NCBI GenBank assembly: GCA_024508725.1 | Contig: JANINS010000003.1 | Span: 744,001 to 808,000, forward strand | Length of the DNA stretch: 64,000 bases | From: Chitinophagaceae bacterium | GTDB taxonomy: Bacteria; Bacteroidota; Bacteroidia; Chitinophagales; Chitinophagaceae | Direction: 5' to 3' | Shown here: positions 43,362-63,192 of the stretch, one piece after another | Layout of the letters: every line of letters begins with the position of its first letter | Numbering within the stretch: position 1 is the stretch's first letter | Notes under the pieces: model-generated | Database searches by the model: none | What the model saw: the letters and a program-made list of their open reading frames with translations, nothing else | Told to the model about the DNA's origin: nothing | Program-made: the position numbers and the translations under genes

Positions 43362-43544
43362 ATGAATCAATCGAATAAAGTCAATTGTCCGGCTTTGGAA
43401 GAGCAGCTTAAAGAAAAACTAAACCAGTACTACCAGGCCGAGGCTGAAGGGAAACCTAAAGTAGAACTTACAACGCTATATCGGGAGTTAAAGGAGCTGA
43501 ACTACCAGCTCACTTTTTGCAAATCCCGTTATAGTTTTAGCTAG
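43362..43544 (+). CDS. Small helical-hairpin protein, paralogue 1 of a four-member family
   Basis: A 60-residue protein predicted as two amphipathic helices joined at EGKPKVEL. From the glycine in the turn it matches the three related proteins at 43608, 45312 and 45603 without gaps: helix 1 has a hydrophobic face ending YYQAEAEG, and helix 2 reads LxxLYxELKEL. The C-terminal CKSRYSFS is unique. There is no signal peptide or TM segment. It is the most divergent member and lacks the [YF]xEL[TNS] motif of the others. ATG 43362 is used; a longer frame begins at 43338. Function unknown. Confidence 0.65.
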   Translation: MNQSNKVNCPALEEQLKEKLNQYYQAEAEGKPKVELTTLYRELKELNYQLTFCKSRYSFS

Positions 43545-43607
43545 CGCTATCACGCAACTTTTATGCTCCTGTAATTTTTTGCAGTGTTTTTGCTTGTTTA
43601 ATATTGG

Positions 43608-43844
43608 ATGGACAAGCAGGTACAACTAGAATTTTTAAAAGGGAAATTTACAGAATTGAGCATGCAATATTTGAATGTATTGCAAACGGGAAACTCATTG
43701 CAACAGATAAAAGACTTATCCTATGTTTTGGAATGCCTTAGAACAGAAATTCAAATGCTGGAAAAAGAACTGGTAAATGAACCTGGAAGCAAAGTATCAA
43801 AAAACACTTCTATAGATCGAGCAATTATTCCAGAAGAGCAATAA
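43608..43844 (+). CDS. Small helical-hairpin protein, paralogue 2
   Basis: A 78-residue protein. Helix 1 KFTELSMQYLNVLQTG and helix 2 SLQQIKDLSYVLECLRTEI share the family pattern, with the conserved Gly-x-Ser turn. A polar 25-residue tail (residues 53-78) follows and looks disordered. It lies 63 nt after paralogue 1 and converges with a response-regulator gene 19 nt beyond its stop codon. It has no clear homologue that I can name. Confidence 0.68.
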   Translation: MDKQVQLEFLKGKFTELSMQYLNVLQTGNSLQQIKDLSYVLECLRTEIQMLEKELVNEPGSKVSKNTSIDRAIIPEEQ

Positions 43845-43863
43845 CGCCTCTTATATCTATGAA

Positions 43864-44322
43864 CTATGCAGCATCCGTTTTCCTGGCATTGGATCTAAAC
43901 AATCCTGCAGGTAAAAGCATCTCGAGTGTTGAAAAAAGTTTCTCCCTGAATTGTTTAACATCACCCGGTTTTACAATGTATGGAATATCATACCTGCTAA
44001 AGAAAGATATATCCTTTGTATCGTTTGAAGTGGTGAGAACTACAACAGGTATTTTGGCAATGTCTTTATCTGCTTTAAGACATACGAGTGTTTCTTTACC
44101 ATCGAGACGAGACATGTTTATGTCTAATAAGATAAGAGAAGGTAAAGGTTTGAAAGGCTTATAATCATTCAGCAATCGCAATGCTTCTTCACCATTATTT
44201 ACATGCAAAACCGTAAATCCTGCTCCACTATTTTCTAAAGTGAAATTCAGAAGTTCAACATCTTCTATATCGTCTTCTATGTATAACACATAGGGTTTGG
44301 GATTGCCTAATTCGTTGAGCAT
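43864..44322 (-). CDS. Single-domain response regulator (CheY/Rcp1-like)
   Basis: A 152-residue receiver domain without an output domain. It shows YIEDDIEDVELL (acidic pair Asp17/Asp18), LILLDINMSRLDG with the phospho-acceptor Asp67, VVLTTSND and the Lys in YIVKPG. The EDDxxD(V) start and the long loop before Asp67 are typical of the Rcp1-type receivers that pair with phytochrome-like or hybrid kinases. No kinase gene is nearby. It lies on the opposite strand to the flanking small helical proteins. Confidence 0.88.
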   Translation of the reverse strand: MLNELGNPKPYVLYIEDDIEDVELLNFTLENSGAGFTVLHVNNGEEALRLLNDYKPFKPLPSLILLDINMSRLDGKETLVCLKADKDIAKIPVVVLTTSNDTKDISFFSRYDIPYIVKPGDVKQFREKLFSTLEMLLPAGLFRSNARKTDAA

Positions 44323-44455
44323 TGGATTCGTTTTCTAGTTCAAATGTAAGAACAAACTAAGCTTATTTTAAGCTGCCGTAAGCTGAATTTAACATTCTAC
44401 AGCCGCTTAGTTTTCTTGATTAATTATTTGAAACCAGAAACAAATTGATAATCAT

Positions 44456-44878
44456 TTAATCATGGATTGTGACGTATTTTGAATGCATAACAACTTCATT
44501 CAAAAAACTTTTAATCACTGTCTCTAGATCGCTAAGGTTATTGGGTTTTGCAACTAAGGGAATATTTTCTTTTTCGAAAAAAGATTCATCAGGTATTGAC
44601 CTTGCAGTTGAAAAAAGAATAATTGGAATGTTTTTGAAAACAGTATGCTGCCGGATTTCTTTAGCAAGTTCGCTCCCGGTTTTGCCTGGCATATTAATAT
44701 CAAGAATAATAAGTGAAGGTATTCGATGCTCTTTCTGTAACTCATGTAAAACATTCAAACCTGTATCACCGTTGTGGGCTTGTTTAACTATAACCGATTG
44801 ATCGATCTTGTTGATCGTTTCTGAGACCAGTTGCCTGTCATCTGCATCATCGTCGATATGTAATATGATCGGTTGCAC
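44456..44878 (-). CDS. Single-domain response regulator, second copy
   Basis: A receiver domain of about 140 residues: IILHIDDDADDRQL (acidic pair), LIILDINMPGKTG (phospho-acceptor Asp), IILFSTARS and VAKPNNLSDLETVI with the conserved Lys. GTG 44878 is chosen as the start because the longer ATG 44959 frame adds 27 residues of Cys/Trp-rich sequence unlike receivers; that start cannot be excluded. It is clearly diverged from the receiver at 43864. No kinase or output domain is linked to it. Confidence 0.82.
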   Translation of the reverse strand: MQPIILHIDDDADDRQLVSETINKIDQSVIVKQAHNGDTGLNVLHELQKEHRIPSLIILDINMPGKTGSELAKEIRQHTVFKNIPIILFSTARSIPDESFFEKENIPLVAKPNNLSDLETVIKSFLNEVVMHSKYVTIHD

Positions 44879-45311
44879 AGGAAGATTTCCGCTCCAATAA
44901 AAGCAAAAACATAGCCATGTTGATGTTTGTTGCGTTAAAGCTCCAACATCATTCAACAAACAAACAACTCACATTTGATTTTAATTATACAGTAAAGACT
45001 TATATAAGCCGCTTCGTCTGGAATAGTTTATGTGTTTCTTCTAAAGGGAACTTAAAATACTTACATGAATCTTTATAGCAACACAGAAAAATCATCTGGC
45101 ACTGATGATGACAGCATCACACCAAAACACTACAATTGGTTATTGATGTTAGCAGCCTTGATCATTTACCTGATTGCATCGTTATCATTTTAACGATTTA
45201 CAAAATGATGAACTGATGTTGAGGTTGTGGTAAATGGGCTACATCAACTATAGCTGTGCACCTGGAAAACAGTGTTAATAAAATTTGCACACTTGTTGTT
45301 TCATTCCAGGT
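44879..45311. other. 433-nt intergenic stretch with one possible short gene
   Basis: Apart from the 42-residue frame at 45065-45193 there is no supported gene. If the response regulator at 44456 starts at its earlier ATG (44959), the free stretch is shorter. No repeat family member was found here. Confidence 0.5.
45065..45193 (+). CDS. Possible 42-residue single-pass membrane protein
   Basis: ATG 45065 to TAA 45193 encodes 42 residues: a polar Ser/Thr/Asp-rich N-terminus, then PKHYNWLLMLAALIIYLIAS, a good transmembrane helix, and a two-residue end. AAAGGGAAC about 15 nt upstream is a weak ribosome-binding site. It lies between the response-regulator pair and small-protein paralogue 3 on the same strand as the latter. 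Coding status is uncertain because of its size. Confidence 0.42.
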   Translation: MNLYSNTEKSSGTDDDSITPKHYNWLLMLAALIIYLIASLSF

Positions 45312-45509
45312 ATGCAGAAAGAACTTGTGGCAAAGGGGCGGATGAAATACATTGAACTAAACAGGCTGTTCCTGCAAGAGGTTGAAAAAGGAACCTCATG
45401 GGAAGAACTGCAGCCATTATTAGAAGAAATGAAATCACTCGCTATTTATCTCCAGTATATTCCTGTTTCTACTGCCGCTTTAGATATAACCAATGCTACT
45501 GAACCATAA
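45312..45509 (+). CDS. Small helical-hairpin protein, paralogue 3
   Basis: A 65-residue protein with helix 1 RMKYIELNRLFLQEVEKG, turn Gly-Thr-Ser, and helix 2 WEELQPLLEEMKSLAIYL. This is the same ungapped pattern as paralogues 2 and 4. A 15-residue polar tail ends it. ATG 45312 is used; the longer frame (45285) adds MHTCCFIPG, not seen in the others. It lies 93 nt before paralogue 4. Confidence 0.68.
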   Translation: MQKELVAKGRMKYIELNRLFLQEVEKGTSWEELQPLLEEMKSLAIYLQYIPVSTAALDITNATEP

Positions 45510-45602
45510 ACAAGCTTAATTGTTTGGCAGTTTGATTATACTTTTCACCTAATAATTCTTATTCGTTTGTATTCTAATAGTTTATTGCCGTACCTTAACG
45601 CT

Positions 45603-45791
45603 ATGGCAGACCTTTCTCTGATCGCAGACCTCAGGAAACGTTATGTAGAGCTTACCCGTCAATTCTTTCGTGAAATAGACGAGGGCAAATCTCTAAACGA
45701 CTTACACGACCTTCAGCAAGAGATAGAACAACTAATGCTGAAGATGGATTCTCATGAACAAAGCAATACTGCTGACGGATCTCCTTCCTGA
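45603..45791 (+). CDS. Small helical-hairpin protein, paralogue 4
   Basis: A 62-residue protein with helix 1 LRKRYVELTRQFFREIDEG, turn Lys-Ser, helix 2 LNDLHDLQQEIEQLMLKM and a polar tail. It is the clearest member of the family and closest to paralogue 3 (shared RxxYxEL, EGxS and EL/DL positions). The ATG at 45603 (MADLSL) is preferred over the longer frame at 45567. The TerC gene follows 85 nt later. No domain is recognised. Confidence 0.7.
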   Translation: MADLSLIADLRKRYVELTRQFFREIDEGKSLNDLHDLQQEIEQLMLKMDSHEQSNTADGSPS

Positions 45792-57426: not shown

Positions 57427-57442
57427 CGAAAACAAATTGTTA

Positions 57443-58114
57443 ATGGATAGCCCTAGAAAAGTGCTGATAGCTGATGATGAACCGGATATTCTGGAGATCA
57501 TTAAATATAACTTATCGGCTGAGGGATATGATGTTATTACTGCTAAAGATGGATCAGAAGCCATTGATAAAGCAAAATCTTCCAGGCCGGATCTGATCAT
57601 CCTGGATATTATGATGCCTAAGAAAACAGGCGTAGAAGTTTGCGAATACCTTAGGTCGCAAGCCGATTTCCAGGAAACCCTGATCATTTTTCTTACTGCA
57701 TTGAGCGATGAAACTTCTCATATCAAAGGGCTGGAAACAGGAGCCGATGATTATGTGAGTAAACCCATTAGTCCTAAAGTTCTGATAAGCAGGGTAAATG
57801 CATTGTTCCGCAGAAACCGGAAAGATGGAAAGTCACTTAAACTCGGAAATCTTACGATCGATCCCGAACGTTTCATCATTAAGATCGACGATACGGAAGT
57901 GGTGCTTGCGAAAAAAGAGTTTGAATTGCTTTACCTCTTAGCCGGCAAACCGGGAAGAGTGTTTTTAAGAAATGAGATCCTGAGCCAGGTTTGGGGTAAT
58001 GATGTGATCGTAGGTGACAGAACGATAGACGTACACATCCGTAAGATCAGGCAGAAATTAGGGATCGATTGCATCACCACTGTAAAAGGAGTGGGCTACA
58101 AATTCGAATTATAA
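57443..58114 (+). CDS. OmpR/PhoB-family response regulator
   Basis: A 223-residue two-domain regulator. The receiver shows VLIADDEPDILEII, phospho-acceptor Asp in LIILDIMMPKKTG, FLTALSD and the Lys in DYVSKPIS. The C-terminal winged helix has KKEFELLYLLAGKPGRVFLR, VWGNDVIVGDRTIDVHIRKIRQKLG and the wing TVKGVGYKFEL. This is the PhoB/OmpR layout. The partner kinase follows at 58176, separated by a 61-nt gap carrying a tandem repeat. The stimulus is unknown; similar pairs in Bacteroidota are annotated PhoPR-like. Confidence 0.93.
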   Translation: MDSPRKVLIADDEPDILEIIKYNLSAEGYDVITAKDGSEAIDKAKSSRPDLIILDIMMPKKTGVEVCEYLRSQADFQETLIIFLTALSDETSHIKGLETGADDYVSKPISPKVLISRVNALFRRNRKDGKSLKLGNLTIDPERFIIKIDDTEVVLAKKEFELLYLLAGKPGRVFLRNEILSQVWGNDVIVGDRTIDVHIRKIRQKLGIDCITTVKGVGYKFEL

Positions 58115-58139
58115 AATATCATTCCCCTAATTTGCATTA

Positions 58140-58167
58140 ATCATGGTCAATGGATCATGGTCAATGG
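58140..58167. repeat. Perfect 14-nt tandem duplication between kinase and regulator genes
   Basis: ATCATGGTCAATGG occurs twice head to tail (58140-58153 and 58154-58167). The last unit ends 8 nt before the kinase ATG, so it lies in the translation-initiation region. Confidence 0.7.
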
Positions 58168-58175
58168 TCTGAGCC

Positions 58176-59219
58176 ATGTTCAAAGCAAAAAATCTATCGC
58201 CAAGGCAACTTTCTCTTTTTACCGCTATCATACTTTCTGTACCCATTGGTTTGGGCTTTTTGTTAGTTTCACCCGAATGGGAAATTGCAGCCATTGCAGC
58301 CGTCATCACATTTGCCGGCAGTTATTACATGATCAGGTTTGTGCTGGAGTGGTTCATCTATCGAAAAATAAAACTCATCTATAAATTCATTTACCAAACC
58401 AAGGCCAGCAAAAGAGAAGAGATGTACTACAAATACATTCTTCCACAAAAAGGGATTGACCAGGTTAGGCAGGATGTGGAGCAATGGGCTGAACAACGAA
58501 GTGCCGAGATCGAAATGCTCAGGAATAATGAAGTGTACCGCAGGGAGTTTTTACAGAACCTTGCACATGAATTCAAGACGCCCATATTTGCAATACAAGG
58601 ATACGTAGATACTTTATTGGGTGGTGCTTTGGAAAATGCAGCAGTTAACCGGAAGTTTTTAGAAAATGCAGCTAAGAATGTTGACAGGATGGTGAATCTG
58701 GTAGAAGATCTTGACGAGATATCAAAATTAGAAAGTGGTGAGCAGCCATTGTATAAAACCGGTTTTGTGATTCAGGAATTGGTGCGTGAAGTATATGAAT
58801 CGCTTTCTATTAAGACTGCAGAATTGCACATAATAACCTCCATCAAAAAAGGATGCGAACAGCCCATCACTGTTTTTGCCGATAAAGAAAAAATCAGACA
58901 GGTGTTGATCAACCTGGTTGATAATGCCCGTAAATATGGAAAGTTTAGCGGAACCATTACAACAGGTATTTATAAAACCGATGAAAAGCATGTGTTGATC
59001 GAGATCAGCGATGATGGGATTGGCATTGCAGAAGAACATTTGCCAAGGATATTCGAACGTTTTTACAGAACCGATCGTGGCAGAAGTCGTGATGTGGGTG
59101 GAACTGGTTTGGGATTAGCCATCTGCAAACACATCATCGAAGCTCACGGACAAAGTATTCATGTGCGAAGCAAACCAGATGTAGGAACAACTGTAGGTTT
59201 TACTTTGGAAGTGAAATGA
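58176..59219 (+). CDS. Sensor histidine kinase (PhoR-like)
   Basis: A 347-residue inner-membrane kinase with two TM helices (about residues 15-34 and 38-56) joined by a very short loop, so there is almost no periplasmic sensor domain. The cytosolic part has a DHp domain with the phospho-acceptor His in FLQNLAHEFKTPIFAIQGY. The ATPase domain shows the N box INLVDNARKYG, G1 ISDDGIGI and G2 GGTGLGLAICKHII. It pairs with the OmpR-type regulator just upstream. Signal input may come through the membrane helices or a partner protein. Confidence 0.93.
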   Translation: MFKAKNLSPRQLSLFTAIILSVPIGLGFLLVSPEWEIAAIAAVITFAGSYYMIRFVLEWFIYRKIKLIYKFIYQTKASKREEMYYKYILPQKGIDQVRQDVEQWAEQRSAEIEMLRNNEVYRREFLQNLAHEFKTPIFAIQGYVDTLLGGALENAAVNRKFLENAAKNVDRMVNLVEDLDEISKLESGEQPLYKTGFVIQELVREVYESLSIKTAELHIITSIKKGCEQPITVFADKEKIRQVLINLVDNARKYGKFSGTITTGIYKTDEKHVLIEISDDGIGIAEEHLPRIFERFYRTDRGRSRDVGGTGLGLAICKHIIEAHGQSIHVRSKPDVGTTVGFTLEVK

Positions 59220-62019: not shown

Positions 62020-63192
62020 ATGCACCCCTTTATGAAGATCTGTAAACCTGAAACATTTTTCTCTCTACTATGCCTGGCACTTGGCTTAACCTGGATCTTT
62101 TTTAGTAGCTGGATGTTAAGTCAGTTTGGACTTAGTCCTAGTCATCCAAACCAGATCGATTATTATACCGATGCCGGCTTCGTAGTGATCGTTTCACTCA
62201 TCATTTTTATAGGTATTCGTTTTTACAGGACACGATTGTCTCATTCAGAATTTCATTATAAAACATTATTCAACACTTCGCCTTTACCCATGTGGATATT
62301 TGATATTGCTACCAGCAGGTTTTTACTGGTGAATAAAGCAATGATCGATAAGTATGGATACAGTAAAAAAGAGCTATTGAATATGTCTCCGGTAGACATT
62401 CGCCCGTCTGAAGAAGTGGAACGTTTTCTTGCTGATATGGCGTTGAAGAAAAGAGGCATCCAGGATGTTGGTATCTGGACCCATAAAAAGAAAAACGGCG
62501 AACTGTTTACGGTGCAGGTGAGAACAAATATTCTAAATTATCGGGGTAAAGAATGTTACCTGGTGATTGCAGATGACATCAGTGATCTTGTAAAAAAAGA
62601 AACTGAGATAGAAAGGCTTTCACTGGTAGCAAAACATACAGTAAACGGTATCATCATCACAGGAAAAGACCGAACTATTGAATGGGTGAATGATGCTTTC
62701 ATTAAAATGACCGGTTATAGTTTTAATGAGGTGGCAGGCAGATCACCGATCGAACTATTACATGGTGAGGAAACTGATAAAGAAGCAGAAAAGCAAATGA
62801 ATCATATCATTGCTTCGAATGAAAATTATTCAGGTGAGATATTGAATTATCGAAAAAATGGAAGTAAAATGTGGGTGCAGACAACTGTTTCACCTATTGA
62901 AATAAACGGCAAAACAGAAAAGCATGTTGCGATATTTATCGATATCACCGACCGTAAGCAACATGAAGCAATGATCTGGCAACAGAATGAAAGATTAAAA
63001 GATATTGCTTTTGCCAGTTCGCATCTCATCAGGGCTCCTTTGGCTAATATTCTTGGATTAACCGACCTTTTGAACGAAGAAATCCAACCTGACCATGAGA
63101 TCATAGCTCATCTGAAATCTTCTGCAAAAAAACTGGATGATGTGGTGAGAGATCTCGTTATTCAAACCACAAACAGTATCCAGAAACAATAG
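62020..63192 (+). CDS. Membrane PAS sensor protein ending after a DHp-like helix
   Basis: A 390-residue protein with two N-terminal TM helices (about residues 14-33 and 50-67) and two PAS domains: about 78-195, with LFNTSPLPMWIFD, and about 205-325, with VKHTVNGIII-type AKHTVNGIIITGKDRTIEWVND split over the domain start. A DHp-like helix pair at the end has FASSHLIRAPLANILGLTDLL, with His in the kinase H-box position. The reading frame stops shortly after it, and no ATPase domain (N, G1, G2 boxes) is present. It therefore cannot phosphorylate itself and may accept phosphate or regulate another kinase. A TTACTTTG -7-like box lies at 61986. ATG 62032 is an alternative start. Confidence 0.85.
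   Translation: MHPFMKICKPETFFSLLCLALGLTWIFFSSWMLSQFGLSPSHPNQIDYYTDAGFVVIVSLIIFIGIRFYRTRLSHSEFHYKTLFNTSPLPMWIFDIATSRFLLVNKAMIDKYGYSKKELLNMSPVDIRPSEEVERFLADMALKKRGIQDVGIWTHKKKNGELFTVQVRTNILNYRGKECYLVIADDISDLVKKETEIERLSLVAKHTVNGIIITGKDRTIEWVNDAFIKMTGYSFNEVAGRSPIELLHGEETDKEAEKQMNHIIASNENYSGEILNYRKNGSKMWVQTTVSPIEINGKTEKHVAIFIDITDRKQHEAMIWQQNERLKDIAFASSHLIRAPLANILGLTDLLNEEIQPDHEIIAHLKSSAKKLDDVVRDLVIQTTNSIQKQ

Follow-up and report, generated by a model that had tools for sequence, protein, structure and literature searches.

A family of very small proteins, predicted to fold as helical hairpins, recurs beside genes for single-domain receivers and, in fewer synteny groups, kinases in Chitinophagaceae. 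Four members are encoded in the window, the 64,000-nucleotide stretch of DNA from a Chitinophagaceae bacterium that was analyzed here. We tentatively read the hairpins as non-catalytic accessory proteins of two-component signaling in this family, acting mainly with stand-alone receivers, that would pair into a bundle and dock on a receiver or a kinase; we favor this reading, at somewhat less than even confidence. The genes concerned are the following.

43362 to 43544, plus strand: helical-hairpin paralogue 1, 60 aa, the weakest member (other-genome profile E = 0.0039)
43608 to 43844, plus strand: helical-hairpin paralogue 2, 78 aa (other-genome profile E = 3.5e-7)
43864 to 44322, minus strand: single-domain receiver 1, 152 aa (PF00072 E = 6.8e-13), convergent with hairpin 2 across a 19-bp gap
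44456 to 44959, minus strand: single-domain receiver 2, up to 167 aa with an uncertain start position (PF00072 E = 5.7e-15)
45312 to 45509, plus strand: helical-hairpin paralogue 3, 65 aa (other-genome profile E = 5.9e-13)
45603 to 45791, plus strand: helical-hairpin paralogue 4, 62 aa (other-genome profile E = 6.8e-12)

The four small plus-strand open reading frames reported in a preliminary description of this DNA are present, and the features ascribed to them were recovered. They carry a Gly-x-[Ser/Pro] turn (GKP, GNS, GTS, and GKS) and, in all four, the helix-2 face [LI]-x2-L-x3-[ILM]-x2-L. The helix-1 motif [YF]-x-E-L-[TNS]-x2-[FY] occurs in three (FTELSMQY, YIELNRLF, and YVELTRQF) and is missing from 43362; variable tails are also supported. 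Based on sequence similarity, the four genes are predicted to encode paralogous helical hairpins, with a resemblance that exceeds chance. We compared 553 open reading frames of the window with a profile built from 55 members of other genomes, which had in turn been collected with profiles initially seeded from the source genome. The profile recovered the four hairpins at E values from 5.9e-13 to 0.0039; the next open reading frame scored 0.37, and no reversed decoy did better than 0.13. The single sequence 43608, used with no profile, found paralogues in its own genome at E values of 3.8e-9 and 1.7e-7. We consider 43362 a probable member, but a weak one. Chance coiled-coil matches were ruled out, as reversed decoys scored far worse (best 0.08 in one search and 0.13 in another).

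The hairpin genes are under strong purifying selection (pN of 0.05 to 0.21 versus pS of 0.28 to 0.92 in pairs of relatives from genus g86). With pN so far under pS, and with homologs in several genera, spurious open reading frames were ruled out. AlphaFold2 models 45603 as two antiparallel helices, residues 2 to 26 and 35 to 57, with a mean pLDDT of 85.6, and a second hairpin model has helices at 10 to 30 and 34 to 61 (pLDDT 80.0). Foldseek with a hairpin model returned nothing at E ≤ 0.001. Its top matches are de novo designed hairpin homo-oligomers (e.g., 5j0k, 28% identity over 56 columns, E = 0.29), artificial proteins unlike the natural family, and in our reading the likeness reflects the antiparallel coiled-coil pattern only. 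The highest Z in VIA-align was 9.2; FrmR/CsoR-type repressors rank there together with unrelated helical hairpins and designed proteins. This ranking is uninformative for helical hairpins, as two-helix hairpins match many unrelated proteins.

The family is dispersed: the source genome has 13 profile matches and a sister species (G001) has 10, the latter with tandem clusters, in agreement with the repeated duplication proposed earlier. Both gene kinds, hairpins and receivers, duplicate and could share variable regions, a counterpoint to the accessory-protein reading. The search with hairpin profiles that had been suggested as a check recovered conserved homologs across Chitinophagaceae genera, with members in 27 of 394 genomes and 13 of 101 genera. 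Two profile matches within coiled-coil proteins of more than 1100 aa (in G103 and G179) were discarded. Among 395 genomes of the class, profile A3 matched the source genome alone at E ≤ 1e-4. Profile A5, in the wider class search at E ≤ 0.01, matched five further genomes in open frames of 100 to 521 aa over 23 to 41 positions, which were not counted as members. At this search sensitivity the family seems confined to Chitinophagaceae, the first-look filter of the wider search being one that may miss short divergent members. That the family has no name was borne out in the libraries searched, with no convincing match in Pfam (17 distinct members), NCBIfam (10 own-genome members only), PHROGs and PADLOC (11 members only), or a PDB profile search of the hairpins; there are weak scattered matches, the best being 0.006, 0.026, 0.007, 0.0042, and 0.0086. 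A literature search of titles and the start of abstracts gave no description of the family among the matches listed.

Of 51 synteny groups, 16 have a single-domain receiver no more than three genes away, versus 1 of 40 control regions (p = 3e-4), and 21 have a two-component gene of any kind at that distance, versus 1 of 40 (p = 1e-5), the window being one of the 21. A failure to recur beside receivers or kinases had been set beforehand as the outcome that would count against a link; recurrence was found, with 30 of the 51 groups still without such a neighbor within three genes. Counted by locus, a single receiver occurs within 1 kb in 23 of 67 rows versus 1.4% of control positions, and receiver-linked rows make up 22 of 54 with strong members and 1 of 13 with weak members. 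In the source genome alone, 4 of 10 hairpin loci have a receiver or kinase domain no farther than 1.5 kb away, versus 6.9% expected (p = 0.0035, from the 51 HATPase matches listed, of 53); several distance thresholds were tried for this and the locus-row comparisons, and the p-values are uncorrected for them. Controls were 40 regions in 19 of the 27 member genomes (G000 and G001 excluded), placed by hand at round positions without prior sight of their content. In these regions, receivers and kinases were identified not by Pfam but with profiles built up from a single receiver of the window and a single kinase of the source genome. Two loci that duplicate two others (L119 and L120, duplicates of L153 and L154) were excluded from the locus-row, receiver-residue, adjacency, and synteny counts. 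One Niastella locus is present twice (L121 and L158, both kept), so that the 67 rows represent 66 distinct loci; both copies are unlinked and were merged by the synteny grouping.

The 24 directly adjacent receiver-hairpin pairs include 19 that are co-directional (9 of them a single syntenic group), 4 convergent, and 1 divergent; of four adjacent kinase-hairpin pairs, three are co-directional. Linked receivers are scattered over the receiver tree, where well supported branches force at least six label changes, and they come from several lineages. An origin of the linkage by single inheritance was rejected: the label "near a hairpin" is unclustered on the tree, with 11 changes versus 11.7 in shuffles, in a sample of 36 near and 13 far receivers that come mostly from hairpin regions.

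The two single-domain receivers described on the opposite strand of the window were confirmed by their PF00072 matches, and both keep the acidic pair, phospho-Asp, Thr/Ser, and Lys. The statement that no kinase is linked holds locally, as the closest kinase within the window is 12.4 kb off. Two hairpin pairs flanking two receivers is a layout found in this window only; elsewhere order and strand vary. Receiver 43864 has two relatives in the sister species (49% and 53% identity), on a contig that carries three hairpins and a truncated piece of a fourth; these hairpins are other paralogues, and the contig is too short for judging the remaining gene order. Hairpin 43608 is 42% identical to a hairpin of the sister species located 263 bp from a histidine kinase gene, and 45312 shares 50% identity over 50 residues with another that is about 2 kb from a kinase gene.

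In the mechanism that we propose for the accessory proteins, each hairpin consists of a predicted pair of antiparallel amphipathic helices joined at a Gly-x-[Ser/Thr/Pro] turn. Two hairpins, identical or from different paralogues, would probably associate into a four-helix bundle. This bundle, with no conserved His, may mimic that of a kinase DHp or phosphotransfer domain and could dock on the receiver face used by kinases and phosphotransferases, or on a kinase. Docking would gate phosphoryl flow by setting how long a receiver stays phosphorylated, or by whom, in a direction that we infer, and diverged helix faces and tails among paralogues may give partner specificity. In a bolder and rather doubtful version, the paralogue-rich, His-less hairpins that Chitinophagaceae have evolved would pair combinatorially into four-helix bundles. 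These would be a new class of receiver partner, an adaptor layer dedicated to single-domain receivers, in which a conserved basic ridge of helix 2, I-[RK]-x3-[KR], faces the acidic pocket of the receiver.

Kinases are enriched near hairpins too: they occur within three genes in 8 of 51 synteny groups versus 0 of 40 controls, and within 2 kb in 9 of 67 locus rows versus 3.3% of control positions. Two own-genome hairpins lie 3' of a kinase gene on the same strand, with gaps of 56 and 92 bp. This favors a reading of the hairpins as anti-kinases in the manner of Sda, which would bind the DHp base and block autophosphorylation, with receivers adjoining through the same pathway only. Sda, a protein of 46 aa, is described as binding the DHp base and is likewise a very small helical protein of two-component signaling (PMC8534201). 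We regard this reading as unlikely, as single receivers are the commoner neighbor (16 groups versus 8) and 17 distinct members fail to match the Pfam Sda family at E ≤ 1.

Hairpins and orphan receivers may instead be small duplicating genes that gather in shared variable regions with no joint function. The 30 synteny groups without a two-component neighbor, the occurrence of tandem hairpin clusters, and the varying strand and order of the two gene kinds are all points in favor. Against it, label-free clustering of neighbors places receivers in 15 groups and every other cluster in at most three, and the runner-up (3 of 51 hairpin groups) is equally found in 3 of 40 controls; the kinases (8 groups by profile) do not merge into one cluster at the required coverage. 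Relatives of receiver 43864 also adjoin hairpins in the sister species, though other paralogues and on a short contig, and the strong purifying selection on hairpins argues in the same direction. We give this explanation a low probability.

The size class and two-helix build would also suit aspartyl-phosphate phosphatases resembling Spo0E (PF09388), with a catalytic residue of the hairpin reaching into the receiver active site. Spo0E-like proteins have been surveyed with a size filter of 40 to 100 aa as small two-helix proteins acting on a receiver domain, and both Spo0E helices are predicted to touch the Spo0A receiver (PMC11115286). The hairpins share the trait of a small protein with two helices joined by a loop (60 to 78 aa; AlphaFold2 helices) but differ in the catalytic signature: with the register set by eye from the Spo0E pattern, SxxxD is at the aligned place in 0 of 68 members, where the two positions are R/K in 48 and K/R in 45. 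SxxxD occurs elsewhere in the helix-2 region of 3 of 68 members. Helix 1 also appears longer than in what we take to be the Spo0E pattern. No column of the 68-member alignment has Asn or Gln in more than 18 members, so that a common amide is lacking as well. PF09388 exceeds its cut-off in 0 of 6 genomes tested and in 1 of the 14 control genomes; none of its weak matches falls at a hairpin locus, and 17 distinct members have no match at E ≤ 1. The hairpin genes also adjoin single-domain receivers, a further difference. We regard the hairpins as improbable phosphatases of this kind.

A last identity, that of degenerate or atypical histidine phosphotransfer proteins like HmrB, Spo0B, and ChpT, is highly improbable. 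The family has no conserved His, as the preliminary description stated: His occurs in at most 6 of 68 members in any column, and 26 of 68 have none in columns 8 to 58. In favor of this identity, the Caulobacter protein HmrB is described as a 108-aa alpha-hairpin that is predicted to dimerize into a four-helix bundle and that works with a hybrid kinase; HmrB differs from the hairpins in having two His whose replacement abolishes rescue (PMC11481889).

We read the hairpins as a new family of an already known functional kind. The source genome has 26 receiver matches in open frames shorter than 180 aa (orphans and others together), and for stand-alone receivers of this sort it is often not known what they act on or with. 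A hairpin family that recurs beside several receiver lineages offers a concrete candidate for such a partner, and the small size of each receiver-hairpin pair makes it amenable to expression, mixing, and measurement. If the hairpins bind receivers, they would extend the short list of known accessory classes, such as Spo0E, Sda, and Rap, by one that the libraries searched do not contain. The linkage of these tiny hairpins to receiver genes suggests an unrecognized small partner of bacterial signaling.

Four plus-strand genes in the window encode small proteins with a predicted helical hairpin, and all four reading frames of the preliminary description are present:

43362-43544, plus strand, hairpin gene 1, open reading frame of 60 amino acids
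43608-43844, plus strand, hairpin gene 2, open reading frame of 78 amino acids
45312-45509, plus strand, hairpin gene 3, open reading frame of 65 amino acids
45603-45791, plus strand, hairpin gene 4, open reading frame of 62 amino acids

Read directly, all four sequences show the helix-2 hydrophobic face and three show the helix-1 motif, as described; the Gly-x-[Ser/Pro] turn is likewise borne out. The two minus-strand reading frames between the hairpin pairs (43864 and 44456) are receivers, as described (PF00072 at E 6.8e-13 and 5.7e-15), and in an alignment both retain the acidic pair, phospho-Asp, Thr/Ser and Lys. Receivers and hairpins form one convergent and one divergent pair, and the arrangement is not an operon. 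The local lack of a linked kinase also holds: the closest in the window, a PhoR-like kinase (58176-59219), is 12.4 kb away. It follows an OmpR-type regulator (57437-59219 for both, plus strand, types assigned by eye). A further plus-strand gene (62020-63192) translates to a PAS-PAS protein with a C-terminal kinase-like DHp stretch, SSHLIRAPLANILGL, after which no HATPase domain was seen.

We assign 45312, 45603 and 43608 firmly, and 43362 probably, to one family based on sequence similarity. Run on 553 window reading frames, a profile built from 55 members in other genomes matched them at 5.9e-13, 6.8e-12, 3.5e-7 and 0.0039, respectively (next window frame 0.37, best reversed frame 0.13); this test is not wholly independent, as the 55 members were collected using profiles first seeded from the window's own genome. 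Independent of that seeding are single-sequence matches: 43608 alone finds own-genome paralogues on contigs C4 (962.8k, 3.8e-9) and C3 (372.4k, 1.7e-7), and 45603 alone finds C3:372.4k, C3:850k, 45312 and C4:1070k (8e-6 to 7e-4). A profile of ten own-genome members gave, at E<=1, 12 matches in a same-genus genome of 76% completeness (one within a 780-amino acid frame) and five in another genus. A wider profile at E<=0.001 gave 13 own-genome and 10 sister-species matches; out of 244 family genomes it matched 12, two of them coiled-coil artefacts. A profile built from outer members matched 27 genomes out of 394 in the family, representing 13 of 101 genera, and recovers own-genome members at E up to 6.8e-7. 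The named relatives with members are Longitalea luteola, L. arenae, Niastella caeni, a Pseudobacter MAG and a Chitinophagaceae MAG; in two class-wide searches covering 395 genomes, no small-protein match beyond Chitinophagaceae was convincing.

The hairpin genes are under protein-level purifying selection, with pN below pS. In a nine-locus syntenic group of genus g86, pN is 0.06-0.15 and pS 0.56-0.92 (15 pairs from six of the nine members, those whose start the motif search picked). Among four other g86 pairs, dN/dS is 0.09-0.17 in three, while synonymous sites are saturated in the fourth. Comparing the own genome with the sister species, four pairs have pS 0.81-0.95 and pN 0.36-0.44.

AlphaFold2 predicts two antiparallel helices for 45603 (2-26 and 35-57, mean pLDDT 85.6) and for a Longitalea arenae member (10-30 and 34-61, pLDDT 80.0). 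The preliminary description knew of no named family with this pattern, and Pfam (17 distinct members), NCBIfam (10), PHROGs and PADLOC (11 each) indeed gave weak, scattered matches and none convincing. Designed coiled coils rank top in a PDB profile search (best E 0.0086). Fold comparison cannot name the family, because the hairpin model matched designed hairpins and many unrelated natural ones, with zero Foldseek matches at E<=0.001. Judged by titles and abstract openings, no paper listed in literature searches describes it.

Recurring association with receivers or kinases was confirmed. Gene order is common to related species, so loci with at least two common flanking proteins were merged, giving 51 synteny groups. 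Any two-component gene lies within three genes on either side in 21 groups, the window being one, versus 1/40 control regions (p=1e-5). Single receivers account for 16/51 versus 1/40 (Fisher p=3e-4) and kinases for 8/51 versus 0/40. Against this, 30/51 groups have no two-component gene within three genes. Across all fetched regions, 23 of 67 locus rows have a single-domain receiver (at most 185 amino acids) within 1 kb versus 1.4% of control positions, and nine have a kinase within 2 kb versus 3.3% (one Niastella locus is entered twice, unlinked both times). Receiver linkage is 22/54 among strong-member rows and 1/13 among weak-member rows. In the own genome (75 receiver and 51 of 53 HATPase matches used), 4/10 independent family loci have one of these within 1.5 kb, versus 6.9% of random positions (p=0.0035); at 5 kb the figures are 6/10 versus 19% (p=0.005). 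Unlabelled neighbour clustering, which at the coverage asked does not join kinases as a single cluster, ranks receivers most recurrent (15 groups versus one control); the runner-up is in three groups and three controls.

The receiver-hairpin association seems to persist through changes of individual partner. Placed on a tree of receivers, 36 'near' and 13 'far' rows require 11 changes of label versus 11.7 in shuffles, at least six forced by well supported branches; linked receivers are thus spread over the tree, and the pairing arose or was retained with several receiver lineages. Two relatives of receiver 43864 (49% and 53% identity) lie on a sister-species contig of 4084 bases, too short to judge the remaining gene order, with four receiver frames, three hairpin genes and a fourth as a cut-off fragment; these hairpins are other paralogues. 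Other contigs of the sister species carry hairpins that match 43608 or 45312 best among the own-genome regions, at distances of 263 bp and about 2 kb from a kinase.

Among 24 directly adjacent receiver-hairpin pairs, 11 run hairpin to receiver on the same strand, eight receiver to hairpin, four are convergent and one divergent. Nine of those 11 are the g86 group (L113, L114, L155, L157, L159, L160, L162, L163 and L164, in nine genomes), where the hairpin is upstream of a stand-alone receiver without an output domain, of the VDDH type found in LuxR-type regulators. Three of four directly adjacent kinase pairs run kinase to hairpin on the same strand, at 56, 92 and 382 bp. Two g17 loci (L062:6626-6901, L064:6588-6860) have a protein of ~90 amino acids directly adjoining the hairpin, and at L048 (7080-8003, minus strand) a transposase-like gene, which we take to be IS1595-type, adjoins it.

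Over 68 non-redundant members, the core comprises L16, [YL]20, [FY]27, A30-L31, a turn at 34, [ED]39-L40, I43, I47, L50 and [LI]54. The polar sites are E23 (62%), R44 (55%; 48/68 counting K as well as R) and K/R48 (45/68). E23 and a basic residue at 44 co-occur (odds ratio 15, p=1.4e-5, not corrected for relatedness), consistent with an inter-helix salt bridge. The conserved basic pair of helix 2 is a candidate for contacting the receiver's acidic pocket.

For this established coding family, with a predicted hairpin, recurrent receiver and kinase linkage and no shared catalytic residue, we tentatively favor, at slightly below an even chance, paired hairpins that dock on receivers or kinases. 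By analogy, the hairpins would pair into four-helix bundles like that proposed for HmrB and those stated for Spo0B and ChpT, all formed by pairing (PMC11481889). They would dock on receivers, as predicted for Spo0E on Spo0A (PMC11115286), or, like Sda, on the DHp domains of kinases (PMC8534201). They would gate or sequester rather than catalyse, a preference that follows from the lack of a shared SxxxD or amide. That they are anti-kinases in the manner of Sda is unlikely, and hitch-hiking as the explanation of the linkage is equally unlikely. A Spo0E-like phosphatase role is quite improbable: SxxxD at the place aligned with Spo0E is in 0/68 members, Asn/Gln reaches at most 18/68 in any column, and in 0/6 genomes does the Spo0E model PF09388 pass its cut-off, its weak matches missing the hairpins. 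A phosphotransfer role is very improbable; as previously noted no His is conserved (at most 6/68 in any column), and the hairpins should not pass phosphate.

The proposed role, as a small accessory protein in two-component signalling, is of a known kind, and a paralogue-rich, His-less, receiver-linked form of it would be new. The linkage is solid, and the hairpins are a directly testable candidate partner for stand-alone receivers.
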